A stretch of DNA of 39,785 nt. Origin: a virus. Shown here in pieces: positions 29,289 through 37,104 of this stretch. A program made the position numbers and the translations under genes. The stretch spans positions 1-39,785 of the IMG/VR virus record IMGVR_UViG_3300048833_000369. One strand, 5' to 3'. Under the pieces are notes generated by a model. It saw only the letters and a list, made by a program, of their open reading frames with translations, ran no database searches and was not told the origin of the DNA. Each line of letters starts with the position of its first letter. Positions within the stretch are counted from its first letter, which is position 1.

Positions 29289-29993
29289 CTACCCCTTCGC
29301 CAGCGGCGCGACGTTCCAGAACAGCACCCGCCCCGGCCCCCGCTTGGCCAGGCACAATTCCCAAGCCTTCGCGTCGTAGTGCGGATCGGCCGGGAAGGGT
29401 GCTGCCAGCGCGGCGCGATCGCTGAACTTGCGGGGATGGATGTGGATCGTGGCCCCGCCCACCTCGCGCGGGGTGAGGTCGCGGCCGATCTGGACGACGT
29501 GACGGCGGGCTTTCGGCCAGGCGGCGGCGAGGCCGCGGGCGAGGACGCCCGACCCAGCGGCGCACCAGACCTCCTGGGGGTCGAAAGCGGCCAGGCGAGC
29601 GGCGGCGGCGATCGCCTCGATTGCTCCGGGGACTTCGGCGCCGAAGGGGATCAGGCTGGCGCCGGTGTTGCGGCAGTATTCGCGGGCGCGGGATTGCACG
29701 ACCGACAGATAGCCCGGGCTGATCGGCACGACCTTGGCGCCGAGGCGGGCGGCCTCAAGCGTTCGGGCATGCGGACGGGTGCGGGCGGCGACGAAGATCG
29801 TGGCGCGCTTGCCAAGGCGCCGGGCGACGGTCGCGATTGCGGTCTGGGCGCCGCCTTCGGGCGGGCTGGCATAGACGGCTTCCTGCACCCCGTCGAAGAC
29901 CTGCCCGATGAACCGGGCCTTGGTACCGCCGGGGAAGAGATCGTCGCGGACAACGGCAATGCCGTGGTGCATCTCAATGATCGGGGCAGTCAT
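29289..29993 (-). CDS. PLP-dependent fold type II-like protein (ACC deaminase/D-cysteine desulfhydrase-like), shortened
   Basis: A 234-aa protein whose motifs fit fold-type II PLP enzymes. VVRDDLFPGGTKARFI places Lys25 where ACC deaminase and D-cysteine desulfhydrase carry the PLP lysine (GGNKxRK). SPPEGGAQTAIATVARRLGK (44-63) resembles their GGxQSNxxRxxAAxAxxLG segment. VWCAAGSGVLARGLA (142-156) matches the phosphate-holding GSGGTxAGL loop. It is about 100 residues shorter than true family members, and the C-terminal PLP-pyridine contact is not obvious. Its start overlaps the methyltransferase stop by ATGA, so it is made with that enzyme. A role in modifying phage DNA bases is an attractive inference; degenerate, non-catalytic use of the fold is the main alternative. 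Confidence 0.7.
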   Translation of the reverse strand: MTAPIIEMHHGIAVVRDDLFPGGTKARFIGQVFDGVQEAVYASPPEGGAQTAIATVARRLGKRATIFVAARTRPHARTLEAARLGAKVVPISPGYLSVVQSRAREYCRNTGASLIPFGAEVPGAIEAIAAAARLAAFDPQEVWCAAGSGVLARGLAAAWPKARRHVVQIGRDLTPREVGGATIHIHPRKFSDRAALAAPFPADPHYDAKAWELCLAKRGPGRVLFWNVAPLAKG

Positions 29994-30961
29994 TGGTCGT
30001 CCTCCGGATCGGGGGCTTCGTTATCGGTGTCTGGCCCTTCGATCTCGCCGAACTCCACCGGCCCGCAGGCTTCAGTCGCCTTGCGCGGATCGCCCTTGCA
30101 GAACACGAGTACATTCTGGTGGGTTCGGCCGAGCTTGCGGGCGGCAGTGAACTGGCGGCCGACGCGGATGGGCAGGGAACCCACGGCCGTGACGAGGATC
30201 GCGTCGTTGTAGAACCGGGCGCCTGCGGCTTCAAAGGCTTCCACCGTCAGGCCGGGCAAGTTGACGAAGAAGCCGCCCTCGTCGCGGACATCTCCGATCA
30301 CCCAGACGGCGAAGCGGTTCGGCCGCAGGCGGGCGACAGCCTGGGCGATGATCTCGCCCTGAGCCTTCAGGAAGTCGGCCAGGGGCATGGTCGAGAGGTC
30401 CGAGGGGTCATCGGAATAGCGTTCGAGGTTCCAGTAGGGTGGACAGCTGAACACCAGATCGGCTTCTATGCCACCCGCCAGCTGGGCGAGATCACGGCTA
30501 TCCCCGGCGATCCAGCGAGGCGCCGGGTCGCCCGCCAGTTCGGCCTGCGCCTGGTTCGCCGCCACCTGTTCGGCGCGCAGTTCGATCCCGACGTAAGGCC
30601 GCCCAAGGCGGGCAGCGACTATGCCGCGCACAGATCCGCCTGCGAACGGGTCCAGCACCGTGCCGGCCGGCGGACAGAACCAGCGATAGGCAATTTCGCA
30701 GAGGACGGGGTCGAAGATCGACGTGCCCGAGGCGGTGGGGGCGTCCGAGGCGGCGTAGTGATCGGCCAGGAATTCCTCGGTGGTCAGTTCCCGGCCAAGT
30801 TCAGCCTCCTTGGCGCGCTTCTTGGCGTAGAAGGACGGATCGCCCGAGGTGTGCGAGGGCATCAACACCCCGCCATTCTGCGGGCCGGGTTGCCCAGCGC
30901 CGACGACATGCTCGCCGCGCATCAGGTCTTGGCCGAAGGTGCGGGCAGGGCCTTTAGCCAT
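29990..30961 (-). CDS. Phage DNA methyltransferase (N4/N6 type)
   Basis: A 323-aa SAM-dependent DNA methyltransferase. Motif I is DPFAGGS (104-110), preceded by FDPVLCEIAYRWFCPPAGTV, and the catalytic motif IV is SCPPYW (172-177), a variant of the (D/N/S)PPY box. YVGIELRAEQ (motif II) and DLVFSCPPYWNLERYSDDP are typical of phage-encoded N6-adenine/N4-cytosine enzymes. Which base is methylated cannot be told from CPPY. The start at 30961 overlaps the ParB-like stop by 8 nt (ATGGCTAAAG junction). It probably protects phage DNA from host restriction or marks it for replication or packaging. No cognate nuclease is adjacent, so it looks solitary. Confidence 0.9.
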   Translation of the reverse strand: MAKGPARTFGQDLMRGEHVVGAGQPGPQNGGVLMPSHTSGDPSFYAKKRAKEAELGRELTTEEFLADHYAASDAPTASGTSIFDPVLCEIAYRWFCPPAGTVLDPFAGGSVRGIVAARLGRPYVGIELRAEQVAANQAQAELAGDPAPRWIAGDSRDLAQLAGGIEADLVFSCPPYWNLERYSDDPSDLSTMPLADFLKAQGEIIAQAVARLRPNRFAVWVIGDVRDEGGFFVNLPGLTVEAFEAAGARFYNDAILVTAVGSLPIRVGRQFTAARKLGRTHQNVLVFCKGDPRKATEACGPVEFGEIEGPDTDNEAPDPEDDQ

Positions 30962-31730
30962 GGGCGGCCTCCTTCCGGGTACGCTTGCCCTCCTTGTGGC
31001 GATAGTGATCGATGTCCTTGTGGATCGGTGCCGGGTCGGCGATGCCCATGCCGGGGACGGCGGGGAAGGATTTCTCGCCGGACCAGCCGCGATCGAGGGG
31101 GCGAGGTGCGCCGCCGGGGGCAGCCCCACGGCCGAGTTCGGAGCGAATACCCAGATCCAGCCAGGCGCGCTTGCGATCTTGCCACCAGCCCTTGCGGGCC
31201 TCGAAGACCGAAAAGGGCGGGATGCCGAAGCGTTCGGCGAGGTTCGCTGAAGGGGTTGGGGTAGCCGCGCCGCCGCCGGTGCTTTCGCCTTGGGCGTCAC
31301 TCTCACCGCCGCCCATCCCGAAGCCTTCAAACCCGGCCATGATCTCGTCCAGTTCGGTCTCATCGAAGCCGATCAGGTCCAGATCGAAATCCGCCTCGCG
31401 CAGCGCCGCCAGTTCCGAACGCAGCAGGTCGTCGTCCCACCCGGCGTTTTCGGCGATGCGGTTGTCGGCGATCACCAGTGCCCGGCGCTGGGCCTCGGTC
31501 AGATGGTCCAGCACGATCACTGGCACTTGCGGAAGGCCCAGCGCCTTCGCGGCCATCAGGCGGCCGTGGCCCGCGATGATCACCTCATCCTCGCCGATCA
31601 GGATCGGGTTGGTGAAGCCGAATTCGACGATCGAGGCCGCGATCTGGGCGATCTGATCCTCGCTGTGAGTTCGGGCATTGCGGATGTAGGGGACGAGGCG
31701 GTCAACCGGGAGCATGTCGATCTGAAGCAT
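30954..31730 (-). CDS. ParB/Srx-like domain protein coupled to methyltransferase
   Basis: This 258-aa protein has an N-terminal ParB/sulfiredoxin-like domain (about 1-90: VDRLVPYIRNARTHSEDQIA, FGFTNPILIGEDEVIIAGHG, RLMAAKALGLPQVPVIV) with the family GHGR box. An acidic helical region follows (LIGFDETELDEIM), then a Gly/Ser linker, then FSVFEARKGWWQDRKRAWLD with GIRSELGRG, a segment I recall in phage methylase operons. Here the ParB-like and methylase parts are two overlapping genes; in many phages they are one polypeptide. ParB-like domains of this kind bind or cut nucleotides or nucleic acid. The start at 31730 follows the end of the leader repeats. Whether it is a DNA-binding partner of the methyltransferase is inference. 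Confidence 0.85.
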   Translation of the reverse strand: MLQIDMLPVDRLVPYIRNARTHSEDQIAQIAASIVEFGFTNPILIGEDEVIIAGHGRLMAAKALGLPQVPVIVLDHLTEAQRRALVIADNRIAENAGWDDDLLRSELAALREADFDLDLIGFDETELDEIMAGFEGFGMGGGESDAQGESTGGGAATPTPSANLAERFGIPPFSVFEARKGWWQDRKRAWLDLGIRSELGRGAAPGGAPRPLDRGWSGEKSFPAVPGMGIADPAPIHKDIDHYRHKEGKRTRKEAAHG

Positions 31731-31776
31731 GGGGCGCGGGGCCTTTCGGATGGGGTGGCCGGGCGCTTCAGCCTTA

Positions 31777-31808
31777 GGTGCGCACCCGCGCACCCAAAGC
31801 GCGCACCC
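31777..31808 (-). repeat. GCGCACCC tandem repeats in ParB-like/methylase leader
   Basis: Three copies of GCGCACCC lie at 31780-31787, 31788-31795 and 31801-31808, the first overlapping the palindrome GGTGCGCACC (31777-31786). A degenerate copy (GTGCGGACCC) follows at about 31812. They lie 47-80 bp upstream of the ParB-like ATG, a natural place for autoregulation by a DNA-binding product of that operon. The 258-bp gap between 31731 and 31988 holds only these repeats and the nested hairpin; I see no gene in it. Confidence 0.6.
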
Positions 31809-32527: not shown

Positions 32528-33493
32528 TCAGTAGATTTGGTGGGCGCGCAGGGTGGCCTCGGTGACGAGGCCCGCCCGCAGCAGGGCATCGCGCTGGGTG
32601 TTCGTGACGGCGCTGGGCGGCACGTAGGCACCGGAGTTCAGCCAGGCGGCCAGGGGCGCCAGCCGGTCCTCGGGGCTTATGGCTGGGCCGCTGGGCGCAA
32701 CGGCAGGGCCAGCGCCAGCTTCCCCAGCACCTTTCGCCTTTGCCGCTTGGGCGATCCGCTTGGCATGGCGCGCTGCGATCGCGTGGGCGAAATACTCCCA
32801 CGTGCGGATCGGGCTGCCTCGGGGCTTGGCCGTGCGTTCGGCGATCACCGGCAGGACGTCCAACTCGAGGTCGTAGCCTGCCTTCAGCCAAGCGCCGATC
32901 GTGGCCGTGGTGCCAGTGATCGCCGCCCTGGCGGTTTGGGTCATCCCCTCGCCGCAGGCGGCCAGACAGGCGGCCTCTGCCGCGTCCAGATCGGGGCCCT
33001 CGTCGTCAGCCGAAACCTCGGTCCGGGCCTCGCGCGTCGCGCCCGCGTCACGCGCGGTAGTAATTACCGGTTCTTTACTTACAAGGTTAGTGTCCAGATT
33101 CTGGACATGGCTTTTCGCGAAATCTGGACATGGCTTTTGCCCCTTTCCATGTCTGGAATCTGGACATGGGTCGGGCCGGTTTTCGGCCGCCAGCGGCAGT
33201 TCCGCCTGGGCTGAAAACTCAGGCTCGAAGGCCAGGAAGTACCGGGTTGATTGCCGCCGGTGGGCGCCCTCGGAGTGGCGCCGCTCGCGGCGGATCAGCC
33301 CGGCCTGTTCCAGCTTGTCGAGATGCACGTTCAGGCTGGCGCGGGAGATTTCGGCATCGGCCGCCAACTGGTCCTGCGACGGGAAGCACCCGTAATCCGG
33401 GTTGTGCCGATCGCAGAGATGCCAGAGGACGAGCTTGGTCGCAGGCGCCAGACCGCGCTGCTGGATCGCCCAGTTGGTGGCACGATGGCTCAT
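32528..33493 (-). CDS. Winged-helix replication-initiator-like protein
   Basis: A 321-aa protein with an N-terminal winged helix-turn-helix (about 1-75: ATKLVLWHLCDRHNPDYGCF, DAEISRASLNVHLDKLEQAG, LIRRERRH). A low-complexity hinge follows (about 105-165), then a helical C-terminal domain (EYFAHAIAARHAKRIAQAAK, ending LVTEATLRAHQIY). This layout resembles phage O-type initiators or helicase loaders. The DNA encoding the hinge (residues about 108-135) carries a cluster of iteron-like repeats, as in lambda O, whose gene contains the origin. The gene starts inside the stop of the 33490 gene (ATGA). It could instead be only a transcription factor; no ATPase or primase motif is present. Confidence 0.8.
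   Translation of the reverse strand: MSHRATNWAIQQRGLAPATKLVLWHLCDRHNPDYGCFPSQDQLAADAEISRASLNVHLDKLEQAGLIRRERRHSEGAHRRQSTRYFLAFEPEFSAQAELPLAAENRPDPCPDSRHGKGQKPCPDFAKSHVQNLDTNLVSKEPVITTARDAGATREARTEVSADDEGPDLDAAEAACLAACGEGMTQTARAAITGTTATIGAWLKAGYDLELDVLPVIAERTAKPRGSPIRTWEYFAHAIAARHAKRIAQAAKAKGAGEAGAGPAVAPSGPAISPEDRLAPLAAWLNSGAYVPPSAVTNTQRDALLRAGLVTEATLRAHQIY
33091..33169. repeat. Iteron cluster (TCTGGACATGG) with adjacent AT-rich tract: candidate phage origin
   Basis: The 11-mer TCTGGACATGG is present at 33100-33110, 33123-33133 and 33159-33169. An inverted 8-nt copy TGTCCAGA is at 33091-33098 and an inverted two-mismatch copy at 33147-33157. The first two direct copies share the extension CTTTT. 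The inverted and direct copies form two closely spaced dyads (33091/33100 and 33147/33159). An AT-rich tract (33057-33090), unusual for this genome, lies directly beside the array. Iterons plus an AT-rich unwinding region inside an initiator gene is the lambda ori plan. Confidence 0.65.
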
Positions 33494-33684
33494 AGCGCGG
33501 CCGTCACCGTCAGCCGCTTCACGATCGCCTCCATCAGCGCGATCCGCAGGTGCGCGTCGTCCTGGCGCATCTTTCCGGCCCGCACCCGGGCCCAGTAGAA
33601 CTGGCGGCGGAGGTCAAGTTCGCGCTGGGCTTCGGCGATCAGGGCAGCCACCGGAAACCGGCCTTCAGGGGTGAGTTTGGTCAT
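33490..33684 (-). CDS. Small hypothetical early protein
   Basis: A 64-aa protein (MTKLTPEGRFPVAALIAEAQ, then RELDLRRQFYWARVRAGKMR, then HLRIALMEAIVKRLTV) predicted to be mostly helical and basic. It lies between the excisionase-like gene and the winged-helix gene, overlapping the latter by ATGA, so it is co-translated. An alternative ATG 12 nt upstream (33696) would abut the preceding stop. I know no family. Confidence 0.7.
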   Translation of the reverse strand: MTKLTPEGRFPVAALIAEAQRELDLRRQFYWARVRAGKMRQDDAHLRIALMEAIVKRLTVTAAL

Positions 33685-33697
33685 TGGCGCCCCCATT

Positions 33698-33952
33698 TCA
33701 GCGCCGCCCGGCCACGGCCTTGTGCTGGCCGGTCTTGCGGGCTTCCTGCTCCTTCAGCCAGTCGCGGACAGCCTCCTTGCGGTAGAGCACTTTGCGGCCA
33801 ACCCGCACGCAGGGCGGCCCCACGCGCCGGGTTTCCCAGCGCTGCAACGTGTCGACCGACAGGGCCAATTGCCGGGCCAGTTCCGCCCGGTCGAGCCAGC
33901 CATCCAGCAGCGCCGGATCAGCGCCCGCGTCCTTCAAGATATTGTTATCCAT
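33698..33952 (-). CDS. Excisionase-like helix-turn-helix (MerR/HTH_17) protein
   Basis: An 84-aa protein with a MerR-type helix-turn-helix at residues 18-70: WLDRAELARQLALSVDTLQR, WETRRVGPPCVRVGRKVLYR, KEAVRDWLKEQE. This is the AlpA/Xis/HTH_17 family used by temperate phages for excision control or early transcription. The ATG at 33952 has GAGGAG 6 nt upstream and follows a 52-bp upstream element shared with the integrase gene, which supports a role in the integration/excision switch. It heads the leftward early operon. An open extension to 34078 covers the regulatory region and is not coding. Confidence 0.85.
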   Translation of the reverse strand: MDNNILKDAGADPALLDGWLDRAELARQLALSVDTLQRWETRRVGPPCVRVGRKVLYRKEAVRDWLKEQEARKTGQHKAVAGRR

Positions 33953-34025
33953 AAGTTTCTCCTCGCGCCGCCGCCCCGGGGATCGGGACCGGTCATCGGC
34001 CAGGAGAGGCAAGCACGGGGCAGGG

Positions 34026-34077
34026 ACCGGCGAAGAGGCGGAAACCGGCGGAAAGGAAAAGGGAATTACGCCGGTCA
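34026..34077 (-). repeat. 52-bp upstream element, copy A (leftward, before excisionase-like gene)
   Basis: Read leftward, this stretch matches 35757-35808 at 45 of 52 positions by my alignment, with a continuous identical run of 19 nt (CCTTTCCGCCGGTTTCCGC at its core) extended to CTCT. Both copies are preceded by GCCCAGCG. It ends about 73 bp before the ATG at 33952. CGCCGGTT/AACCGGCG half-sites recur within it and again at about 34094 and 34114. It is best read as a shared operator/promoter region. The stretch 34078-34266 between this element and the next gene holds only such half-sites and no gene. Confidence 0.75.
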
Positions 34078-34266
34078 CGCTGGGCTGTAGTTCAACCGGC
34101 GAAACGCACCGCGCAACCGGCTTGATTGGCGACAGGTTTATGACAATCTGAGGGGGAGCAGTTCACAACAGATTCGCCGAAACGTCGCCGCGCCCGGAAG
34201 GGCGAGGTGCACGGCCCCTGTGCGTTCAGGGGCTGGAGAAAGGAGGGCGGTAACGGGGGGCAGGTA

Positions 34267-34857
34267 ATGGCGTTTGTCGCCCGGAATTTCTATTCTGTTC
34301 TCGAGACTTCCTTCCGCTGGGAGTGCAGCCAGACCGAGATTGTCGATCTGGCGATGGCCGAGAAGATCGACCTCGTCATCGCGCTGCCGAACGTACGGTT
34401 CGATGATGGAACCGAGGCGACGATGGGCGTCATTCAGGGCGGCGTCGTGCGTCCCTTGTTCCGGGGCTACGGTGTGCTGGAGGAGCAGGTCTTCATCCGT
34501 CAGGCACGCCCTCCCAATTGCGGCTGGAAACGCATCGAAGAGCCCAAAGAGGGCATCCGGGTGATGGCGCCTGACGTTCTGATCATGGCGGCCGAGGTTG
34601 AGCGGTTCGAAGACGAAAATGGCCTCGTACGGCGGGTCGTATCGGGCCCCGGGGCGCAGACCCGCTACGACTGGGACGGGTTCTACTGCGAAATCATCTG
34701 CCGGGTCCAAGAGCGCGGCCTACCCACCAAGCAGAAGGAACTCATCGACGATATGGTCGATTGGTTCCTGAGCAGATCGGTCAACGGGGATGCCCCGGAC
34801 GATTCAACAATCCGAAAGAAGATCAGAGGCTTCTGGGGTCGACTCCGGCCCGACTAG
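34267..34857 (+). CDS. Hypothetical protein beside the early control region
   Basis: A 196-aa protein (MAFVARNFYSVLETSFRWEC, then SQTEIVDLAMAEKIDLVIAL, then PNVRFDDGTEATMGVIQGGV) with a beta-rich centre (FRGYGVLEEQVFIRQARPPN, MAPDVLIMAAEVERFEDENG). Its C-terminal helix-loop segment LPTKQKELIDDMVDWFLSRS with DDSTIRKKIRGFWGRL is a tail I have seen in many Rhodobacterales prophage and plasmid proteins without known function. It diverges from the excisionase-like operon across 314 bp and converges with the CoiA-like gene 9 bp away. It occupies the place where a phage repressor would be expected, but no helix-turn-helix is visible. The start is taken at 34267, because the upstream in-frame extension from 34207 is not protein-like. 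Confidence 0.75.
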   Translation: MAFVARNFYSVLETSFRWECSQTEIVDLAMAEKIDLVIALPNVRFDDGTEATMGVIQGGVVRPLFRGYGVLEEQVFIRQARPPNCGWKRIEEPKEGIRVMAPDVLIMAAEVERFEDENGLVRRVVSGPGAQTRYDWDGFYCEIICRVQERGLPTKQKELIDDMVDWFLSRSVNGDAPDDSTIRKKIRGFWGRLRPD

Positions 34858-34866
34858 TTCAACGAT

Positions 34867-35607
34867 TCACCTGCGCCAGTATCGTAGTCGATAGCGGGGT
34901 TGGATTAACTGAGCGAAAAGGGCCTCATGGACGCTTTGCCAATCAAAGATCGCAGCCTCGCCATCAGCGATTTTGACGAGGGTGGACCTGTGAACCGGGA
35001 AGTAGAGGGCCTTTTCCATGAACCTGCTTGGTAGCAGACACATCAGATGGCTTTGTTGGCTTGAAGCGCCCTCGGTGCCAAGCCCGTCAAAGTCGAATAG
35101 GACGGGCACCGAGCAGTTAAGCCACATCCTTGGAAAGTAGGCTCCTGGAACGTGTACTTGCTGGACAATTCCCTCGGGCAGCACATGCCAGCCAGGATGG
35201 TTCTCATTGATGCGCGGTCGGTCGCTTTTCAGGCGAGTGCAGTCAACGATCCAGAGCATCTTCCGATAGAAATCTTCACGAGACTGTCGCTCCGCCGCCT
35301 TGATGGACGAGTGTTGGAACTCGATAACAAGGCCATTTGGCGTCTTGATGTCGGCAATATGGATTTCTCCCGTCGGCGAACGGTGCACGGATTCCTGCCA
35401 TTCCCTTGGAAAGAGGTTCTTCCATTGCCGGTGCCATTCTGTTTCTGGCTCCCACCAAGGATCGCACACTCGCTTGCCTTTGTGGGCCCAGTGCCAGACA
35501 CGTTCAGTACCACATTTGGCAATCACAGGCTGCGCGCAGCCAGGGCATTGACCAGCGAAACCGGGTTCAGGTTCGCGACGTTCGCCGTCAACCAAAGAGA
35601 ACTTCAT
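34867..35607 (-). CDS. CoiA-like competence-family nuclease
   Basis: A 246-aa protein with the CoiA architecture. It has an N-terminal zinc-ribbon-like segment (Cys21, Cys24 in CPGCAQPV; Cys32), then WHWAHK (39-43) equivalent to the CoiA HFAH box, then EPETEWHRQWKNLFP (the conserved E/H/K helix), then a PD-(D/E)xK-like core with Asp86 (HIADIKTPNG) and Glu96-x-Gln98 (VIEFQHSSI). The C-terminal third is less conserved. CoiA acts on DNA or recombination intermediates during natural transformation; phage-borne relatives are probably nucleases. The ATG at 35607 has AAGGG 7 nt upstream. Lower G+C than the core and its position between the two inverted 52-bp elements suggest accessory cargo. Confidence 0.82.
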   Translation of the reverse strand: MKFSLVDGERREPEPGFAGQCPGCAQPVIAKCGTERVWHWAHKGKRVCDPWWEPETEWHRQWKNLFPREWQESVHRSPTGEIHIADIKTPNGLVIEFQHSSIKAAERQSREDFYRKMLWIVDCTRLKSDRPRINENHPGWHVLPEGIVQQVHVPGAYFPRMWLNCSVPVLFDFDGLGTEGASSQQSHLMCLLPSRFMEKALYFPVHRSTLVKIADGEAAIFDWQSVHEALFAQLIQPRYRLRYWRR

Positions 35608-35756
35608 CCTTACGCCCTTCGAACTAGGTCGTGCCTGAAAGAGAACTTGCGTGGAGCGTAACCTTCGCCGGGCCGTTGTGTCGATATATGGTTGTCGGCC
35701 CACGCGCCGGTGCCAAAGGTAGTACTTCAGCTAACATTTTCTGCCCAGCGCCGCCC

Positions 35757-35808
35757 TGACCGGCATAATTACCAGGACCTTTCCGCCGGTTTCCGCCTCT
35801 GCGCCGGT
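35757..35808 (+). repeat. 52-bp upstream element, copy B (rightward, before integrase)
   Basis: This is the second copy of the element at 34026-34077, in inverted orientation on the map but in the same orientation relative to the gene it precedes. It ends 66 bp before the integrase ATG, against about 73 bp in copy A. Similarity stops at the element edges, so this is not a general duplication of the gene starts. The rest of the 267-bp gap 35608-35874 has no gene that I can support. Confidence 0.75.
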
Positions 35809-35874
35809 TTGGCCCGAATGAGACATTGCTCCGCGCCGCGGGTCGTCGCTGACTGCGGGTGAAAGGAGCGTCGC

Positions 35875-37104
35875 ATGAAGGCAAAACTCTCTGAACGCGT
35901 TGTAAAGGCTGCTGAAATCGGCAGCCGCAAGTATGTCCTCTTCGATGAGGATACCCCTGGCTTCGGGCTCTGCGTCTACACCACCGGGCGCAAGGGGTTC
36001 GTGCTGATCTACCGGATCGCAGGGCAGCAGAAACGCTTCACGATTGGCGTCTGGCCGACATGGTCGGTGACCGCCGCCCGGGATGAGGCCAAGCGCCTGA
36101 TCCGCGAGATCGATCGCGGCGAGGACCCGCTCGACACCCGCAAGGCCGCCCGCGGGGCGCCCACGGTCAAGGAACTGGCCGAGCGGTTCATCGAGGAACA
36201 CCTGCCGAAGCTCGCCCCGACCAATGCCTCGGACCAGAAGAGCATGCTGGAAAAGCTGGTCTTGCCAGAGTGGAAGAACCGCAAGGTGGCGGACATCACG
36301 CCCACCGACGTCGATCGCCTGCTGACCAAAATCGCCGCCGGGCGGGCGCGGCCGTCGAAGAAGAAACCCACCCAGAAGCGGCGCAAGAAACTGGCCCCGC
36401 CCAAGCCCACGCCGGTGCGGGCCAACCGAGCTGGGGAGATGCTGCGCAAGATGTTCAATCTCGCCATGCTGTGGAAGATGCGCACCGACAACCCGGCCTT
36501 CGGGTTCCGCCGCCGCCCCGAGGTGGCCCGTGACCGGTTCCTCTCCTTCGAGGAGATCGAACGCCTGGCCAACGCCCTGGCCGTCGACGAAGATCAGCGC
36601 GCCGCCAGCATCATCCGCCTCTGCATGCTGACCGGAGCCCGGCTGGGCGAGGTCCGCACGGCGACCTTCGACCAATTCAACCTCGATCTGGCCATCTGGA
36701 CCAAGCAAGCCGCCTACACCAAGCAGCGCCGCATCCACCGCGTGCCGATCTCGCATGAGGCGGTGGCCCTGATCCGCCTGCGGCGGGAAATCGTGCCGAA
36801 GGGCTGCCCCTTCCTCTTCCCGGGCGACGTCCCCGATCAGCCGGTCGGCGATCCCAAGCGCTTCTGGCCCAAGATGCAGAAGGTCGCCCAGATCCCCGAC
36901 GTCCGCATCCACGACCTGCGCCACACCTTCGCCTCGCTGCTGGTTTCCGGCGGCGCATCGCTGGAAATGATCGGCCGCCTCCTCGGTCACACCCAGATCG
37001 GCACCACCCAGCGCTATGCCCACCTGATCGACGCACCCCTGCGGGCCGGGGTGAACGCCGTGGGTGAGATGCTGAAGCCGCGGTTGCGTGTGGTGGGGGA
37101 GTAG
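35875..37104 (+). CDS. int: Tyrosine site-specific integrase (P4-like, DUF4102 arm domain)
   Basis: A 409-aa tyrosine recombinase that integrates and excises the prophage. Residues 1-85 form a DUF4102-type arm-binding domain (GFGLCVYTTGRKGFVLIYRI, KRFTIGVWPTWSVTAARDEA). Residues about 95-190 form the SAM-like core-binding domain, with a long basic insertion (RPSKKKPTQKRRKK). The catalytic set is complete: Arg256 (TGARLGEVR), His346 and Arg349 (HDLRH), His372 (LLGHTQIGTT) and Tyr381 (QRYAHL). AAAGGAG lies 7 nt before the ATG. The family often uses tRNA genes as attB, consistent with tRNA-fMet at the other end. The gene reads outward, so attR should lie downstream, between 37105 and 37281 or beyond the next genes. 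Confidence 0.96.
   Translation: MKAKLSERVVKAAEIGSRKYVLFDEDTPGFGLCVYTTGRKGFVLIYRIAGQQKRFTIGVWPTWSVTAARDEAKRLIREIDRGEDPLDTRKAARGAPTVKELAERFIEEHLPKLAPTNASDQKSMLEKLVLPEWKNRKVADITPTDVDRLLTKIAAGRARPSKKKPTQKRRKKLAPPKPTPVRANRAGEMLRKMFNLAMLWKMRTDNPAFGFRRRPEVARDRFLSFEEIERLANALAVDEDQRAASIIRLCMLTGARLGEVRTATFDQFNLDLAIWTKQAAYTKQRRIHRVPISHEAVALIRLRREIVPKGCPFLFPGDVPDQPVGDPKRFWPKMQKVAQIPDVRIHDLRHTFASLLVSGGASLEMIGRLLGHTQIGTTQRYAHLIDAPLRAGVNAVGEMLKPRLRVVGE

Follow-up and report, generated by a model that had tools for sequence, protein, structure and literature searches.

What does a cluster of repeated DNA words, arranged in dyads beside an AT-rich tract, do inside a phage gene that encodes a winged-helix protein? 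The gene lies at 32528–33493 (minus strand) of the window, by which we mean the whole stretch of DNA analyzed here, an entire IMG/VR virus record of 39,785 bp. The phage infects a Paracoccus/Rhodobacter-type bacterium and is temperate judging by its gene content, with an integrase gene at 35875–37104 as well as terminase, portal, head, tail and lysis genes. As detailed below, the repeat-bearing segment is very probably the theta-replication origin of this phage, lying among the hinge codons of the gene for its initiator, and far more than a hundred related phages and prophages show the same predicted in-gene layout.

Translation of the open frame gives a protein of 321 amino acids, with an N-terminal winged helix, a disordered hinge and a helical C-terminal region. 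PHROG 345 (“replication initiation O-like”) matches residues 1–206, i.e., the winged helix and the hinge (E 9e-30), twelve more PHROG profiles match as well (mostly replication initiators, PHROG 391 and 678 among them), and the N-terminus matches Pfam HTH_36 (E 2.1e-14, 53.5 bits vs. a curated cut-off of 25). The winged-helix, replication-type gene of the original prediction is thus recovered as an O-like replication initiator gene. The Pfam family of lambda O (Phage_rep_O, PF04492) was not matched by the initiator, no plasmid Rep family in Pfam came above cut-off, a PDB sequence search returned no relative, and a PDB fold search gave only weak matches (E above 0.01) to generic winged helices of the MarR and DnaD-N type. 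An AlphaFold model built from 59 homologs places the winged helix in helices 3–11, 17–28 and 40–47, a recognition helix at residues 51–63 (codons at 33305–33343, minus strand) and wing strands 67–70 and 84–87. The hinge had been expected to be unstructured, and pLDDT indeed falls below 50 over nearly all of residues 100–161 (100–103, 106–153 and 155–161), while the C-terminal helices are modeled confidently.

Upstream in the initiator operon lies a small gene (33490–33696, minus strand; PHROG 19667); a gene for an HTH_17, excisionase-type DNA-binding protein (33698–33954, minus strand; start assigned by eye) also lies upstream. PHROG scans of the main reading frames of the window found no polymerase, primase, helicase or P-like loader, although a diverged loader could escape such scans; this gene content is what one would expect of a phage whose initiator draws on the enzymes of the host. 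The initiator operon is closely followed, on its downstream side, by a gene for a ParB-like partition protein or nuclease (30954–31793, minus strand), adjoined and overlapped by a DNA methyltransferase frame (29990–31363, minus strand). The product of 29289–29993 (minus strand), in the same replication/methylase region, resembles pyridoxal-phosphate “threonine dehydratase” phage proteins (PHROG 7093, E 6e-82), and that of 34867–35703 (minus strand), next to the integrase gene, has a weak CoiA-type (competence nuclease-like) match.

The repeats occupy 79 bp (33091–33169) as dyad, single, dyad. Five copies within that span had been claimed; the span stands, and the copies are three exact and two partial ones. 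The 11-mer TCTGGACATGG occurs exactly at 33159–33169, 33123–33133 and 33100–33110, all on the plus strand. On the coding strand, where the word reads TGTCCAGA, the array begins with the upstream dyad, formed by the copy at 33159–33169 (frame 0) and an imperfect inverted copy at 33147–33157 (minus strand, two mismatches to TCTGGACATGG). It continues with the single iteron at 33123–33133 (frame 0), 23 bp from the terminal dyad, whose outer arm is the copy at 33100–33110 (frame 2) and whose inner arm is an inverted copy at 33091–33098 (minus strand) that retains the 8-base core TCTGGACA and 8 of the 11 letters; the AT-rich tract follows. The two dyads and one single of the original prediction are therefore all present, and they come close to the general layout of the family, since homologs share the terminal dyad, the inner iteron and mostly the upstream dyad (see below). 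TCTGGACA is the only 8-mer with at least four copies inside 110 nt anywhere in the window on either strand, and four copies were reached in none of 150 synonymous and none of 150 codon-order shuffles of the gene. Across the window, matches to the TCTGGACATGG 11-mer with up to two mismatches were not enriched (11 found vs. 10.0 expected), so that what is unusual is the clustering of the repeats and not their window-wide abundance. Three further scans were negative: blastn of the origin DNA against named phages gave no match, GC skew showed no clear turn at 33.1 kb, and a promoter scan of 32900–35900 found no sigma-70-type promoter, a model that is uninformative for alphaproteobacteria.

Beside the terminal dyad lies the AT-rich tract (33057–33090), the presumed DNA-unwinding element. 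An AT-rich stretch had been noted here, and GC does fall to 40% over 33056–33115, from 64% on average in the window; taken by itself the tract does not stand out, because several other 60-bp stretches of the window have equally low or lower GC. The tract holds a second repeat: a first AACCNNGTAA unit (AACCTTGTAAGT, 33077–33088, minus strand) stands at a fixed distance from the terminal dyad, where the presumed unwinding element starts, and is followed by a second unit of the same type (GAACCGGTAATT, 33062–33073, minus strand).

To see how far this arrangement extends, we gathered homologs from viral contigs, bacterial genomes, named phages and plasmids (177 distinct genes) and used AAC[CA]NNGTAA at nt 250–700 of the gene as an anchor. 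The anchor is present in 145 of the 177 genes, always in frame 0, vs. about 5 after synonymous shuffling, and in these 145 the hinge closes with an iteron dyad and then AACCNNGTAA repeats, more iterons being spaced 23 bp apart. At a spacing of 23, the words 20 and 43 nt upstream of the AACC anchor agree in 9.0 of 10 letters; agreement is 4 or lower at every other spacing between 18 and 28, and synonymous shuffling gives 5.1. Across the 145 homologs, the two arms of the terminal dyad show an average complementarity of 7.1 of 8 positions, the inner iteron at −43 is not palindromic (arm complementarity 2.6 of 8), and the upstream, second dyad was found in 124 of the 145. AACC units, mostly of the form AACC-N(1-2)-GTAA, number two or three per 60 nt in all 145 array-bearing genes, where they are the least variable part of the hinge origin, and GC at the site averages 40% across the family vs. 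62% for the gene. A scan of all IMG/VR viral contigs for a triple AACC repeat returned 35 contigs, 33 of them with the repeat in winged-helix genes directly behind iterons, the other two being a truncated member and an unrelated sequence.

The iteron word itself differs between subfamilies (TGTCCAGA, TGTCCGGA/TGTCCGAA, TGTCCAAA, TGTCTCA, ATCTCCGGA, GACTCCGG, ACCGGAC and others) while the register of the array stays constant in 145 of 177 genes. This comparison, proposed with the original prediction, would have counted against it had the hinges lacked repeats; it came out in its favor, with hinge repeats kept in place and a varying repeat word. Among the 32 genes that lack an exact anchor are truncated copies and Rhizobium-type genes, the latter with AACC-N-GTAA (one base between) behind AACCGGAC repeats. 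Two metagenome contigs (L012:1425–1889 and L013:4001–4465) carry a 99%-identical gene copy that has lost its hinge codons, most of the codons for the C-terminal region and, with the hinge, the origin; these copies may represent a decayed prophage or an assembly artefact. Jhaorihella thermophila has two loci with the initiator gene in one genome (L049 and L047), the frame of L049 being broken after about 41 codons, probably by insertion or rearrangement.

The same data bear on two other readings of the locus. The repeats could be an intragenic operator through which the winged-helix protein regulates its own operon, replication beginning elsewhere: MarR/DnaD-type winged helices are often regulators, and a protein bound within the gene might stop its transcription. 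We consider this improbable, given that in each array-bearing homolog the array sits over 250 nt into the reading frame and always precedes the low-GC AACC tract at a fixed distance, that the profile matches of the protein are to replication initiators, and that related phages pair the initiator gene with replication P, helicase-loader or DnaB genes (a DnaB-like helicase after the initiator gene in ZF40, a P-like protein in Aggregatibacter S1249, and a helicase loader plus DnaB in Gordonia Aleemily). There is a similarly small chance that the origin belongs to a remnant or satellite-type element and goes unused by an active phage. The window is an assembled IMG/VR record and integrated prophages decay; yet its integrase, structural and lysis genes are present, and the same plan is found in the isolated phages RcOceanus, RcHotPocket and LagS-V1.

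A further question is whether the repeats are maintained as DNA or for the Pro/Cys/Lys-rich linker peptide that they encode. The peptides PCP, SHVQN and EPV do recur in the hinge. However, with copies 23 bp apart the reading frame changes from each copy to the next, so that one DNA word yields differing peptides (VSx, CPx, RVxN), and the iteron core is read in all three frames in 112 of the 145 genes and in two frames in 27. Synonymous positions are also fixed: the anchor Val codon is GTA in 138 of 138 genes vs. 3.9% elsewhere (counted with an anchor defined by the protein motif), and Glu before Pro-Val/Leu is encoded by GAA in 238 of 239 cases. Among pairs of genes that share an iteron and have 30–50% N-terminal amino-acid identity, 53 nt of origin DNA are 82% identical vs. 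44% for the N-terminal DNA. Contig L249 and Labrenzia phage LagS-V1 are 86% identical across ~100 bp of the origin, with no other similarity in 2.5 kb. Hinge peptides change along with the iteron word, and the region is predicted to be disordered. These patterns show that selection works at the DNA level, as originally proposed, and conservation for the sake of the peptide seems exceedingly unlikely.

We compared iteron positions with 92 protein columns by weighted, unsupervised mutual information: the top partner of iteron position 3 was residue 51, that of positions 6–8 was residue 56, and residue 53 ranked second for position 7, all three lying at the start of the recognition helix in the AlphaFold model. 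Arg51 pairs with G at iteron position 3 in 117 of 117 genes and non-Arg with C in 22 of 22; Arg56 pairs with TCA in 16 of 17, Thr56 with CAG in 12 of 12, and Asp/Glu56 mostly with CGG or CGA. Genes found later via the AACC pattern alone followed the Arg51 rule in 16 of 16 cases, a set that omits L285 (fetched by its iteron) and L264 (cut), and the Arg56–TCA rule in 3 of 3. The tree implies ~3 changes of residue 51 and 4–5 of residue 56, numbers that leave a test of independent pairs underpowered, and a divergence-corrected test was partly supportive, placing helix columns 51, 52, 54, 55 and 56 in the top 11, with column 83 first, near the permutation limit. Because the iteron words track recognition-helix residues, the winged helix of the initiator probably binds the iterons of its own gene; since few independent changes underlie the pairing, this covariation is good but not decisive evidence of such binding.

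A parS-like partition site for the ParB-like protein of 30954–31793, whose gene lies ~1.3 kb from the array, is highly improbable, as every relative with an array carries it in the initiator gene, its word follows the initiator's recognition helix, and no ParB is annotated within ~6 kb in RcOceanus and LagS-V1, which keep the array or an analogue. The reading of the segment as a phage origin with a winged-helix initiator, first made from the window alone, draws support from an array kept in 145 of 177 homologs and from an iteron word that tracks the recognition helix. Binding, melting, helicase loading and use of the origin in vivo are steps that we infer along the following lines. The winged helix would bind TGTCCAGA half-sites, probably as dimers on the two dyads and as one or more further protomers on the 23-bp-spaced single site, and the bound initiator would wrap the array. 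Together with negative supercoiling, to which transcription of the initiator operon would contribute, this binding would melt the AACCNNGTAA/AT-rich tract at 33057–33090. Host DnaB helicase would be brought in by the C-terminal region or by an unrecognized partner, a role assigned in this way because the scans of the window turned up neither a helicase nor a loader.

Comparison with bacteriophage lambda supports the scheme in outline. Lambda O dimers bind and bend the iterons and, on negatively supercoiled DNA, melt an adjoining AT-rich stretch of 40 bp, to which DnaB is delivered by P (PMC5043065; PMC7466680). As in the window, the lambda origin lies inside the initiator's gene, with iterons in the linker-coding part at a spacing of 20–24 bp (PMC5043065, PMC7466680), read in different frames, and with the AT-rich tract 3′ of them; in our own assay, lambda gave iteron spacings of 20, 24 and 23, then the AT-rich tract. 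Lambda O and the window initiator both match PHROG 345, 391 and 678, whose names are annotations. The two systems differ in that lambda O belongs to Phage_rep_O and the window initiator to HTH_36, and a profile comparison of the two proteins gave no direct match. In lambda every single iteron has the form of an inverted repeat and takes up an O dimer (PMC5043065), whereas inner iterons of the window array are half-sites between two dyads. The conserved AACCNNGTAA repeat that follows the iterons in the window family has no counterpart in lambda, whose origin was examined for an AACC-type repeat and lacks one, and no P-like gene to match that of lambda was found in the window. The “lambda plan” of the original prediction therefore holds for in-gene iterons beside an AT-rich tract and not for palindromic single iterons, a P neighbor or the Phage_rep_O family. 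The locus is best read as an origin that would work like ori-lambda in a separate initiator family; among open-licence papers we found no description of an in-gene origin for this alphaproteobacterial branch.

Other HTH_36 initiators can be compared as well. Those of SfV (orf39), Vibrio D65, ZF40, Aggregatibacter S1249 and Arthrobacter Renna12 have hinge repeats and then a second, short direct repeat built on AACC..GT, as here, with other iteron words and another second repeat. In gamma-phage initiators, GAACCAGTCA units occupy the same place behind the iterons, and in Arthrobacter phages TTGAACCGTCC units recur at 11-bp spacing in changing frames, a DNA-level and GC-rich repeat. Some of these gamma- and actinophage systems carry P, helicase-loader or DnaB genes next door. 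No AACC-type second repeat was seen in the C-terminal-only relatives of Gordonia, Pseudomonas and Lactococcus phages. Iteron plasmids such as RK2/TrfA resemble the window in having direct iterons at intervals of roughly two helical turns and an unwinding element made of repeats, and their origin lies beside, not inside, the initiator gene. A parallel between the lambda origin and iteron plasmids has also been drawn (PMC5043065).

It is tempting to speculate that an in-gene origin of two modules is common to the HTH_36 initiators of alpha-, gamma- and actinobacteriophages, with replicon-specific iterons that co-evolve with the recognition helix reading them and, next to these, a nearly universal AACC-N(0-2)-GT repeat bound by something that all these hosts and phages have in common, although we hold this joint reading only tentatively and think it rather doubtful as it stands. 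The binder may be a part of the initiator that is conserved and binds ssDNA, or else the helicase/primase machinery of the host; DnaA-trios and plasmid 13-mers are the proposed analogues of the second repeat. The scan for SfV-type relatives gave near-identical loci only, so that the gamma comparison stands on single phages, and since few gamma- and actinophages were compared, the generality of the AACC repeat is a lead and not a result. The partly GC-rich form of the repeat in Arthrobacter phages wants an explanation beyond that of a generic AT-rich unwinding element.

The window's own locus is near expectation, and the interest lies in the family-wide combination of swappable iterons with a fixed AACC repeat. 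The O/ori plan of lambda would thereby reach a large group of temperate phages of alphaproteobacteria that has received little study, and whose origins may be located by the iteron/AACC sequence signature. With protein and origin in one kilobase, the family also offers many natural matched initiator–iteron pairs, so that a recognition code could be tested by cross-binding.
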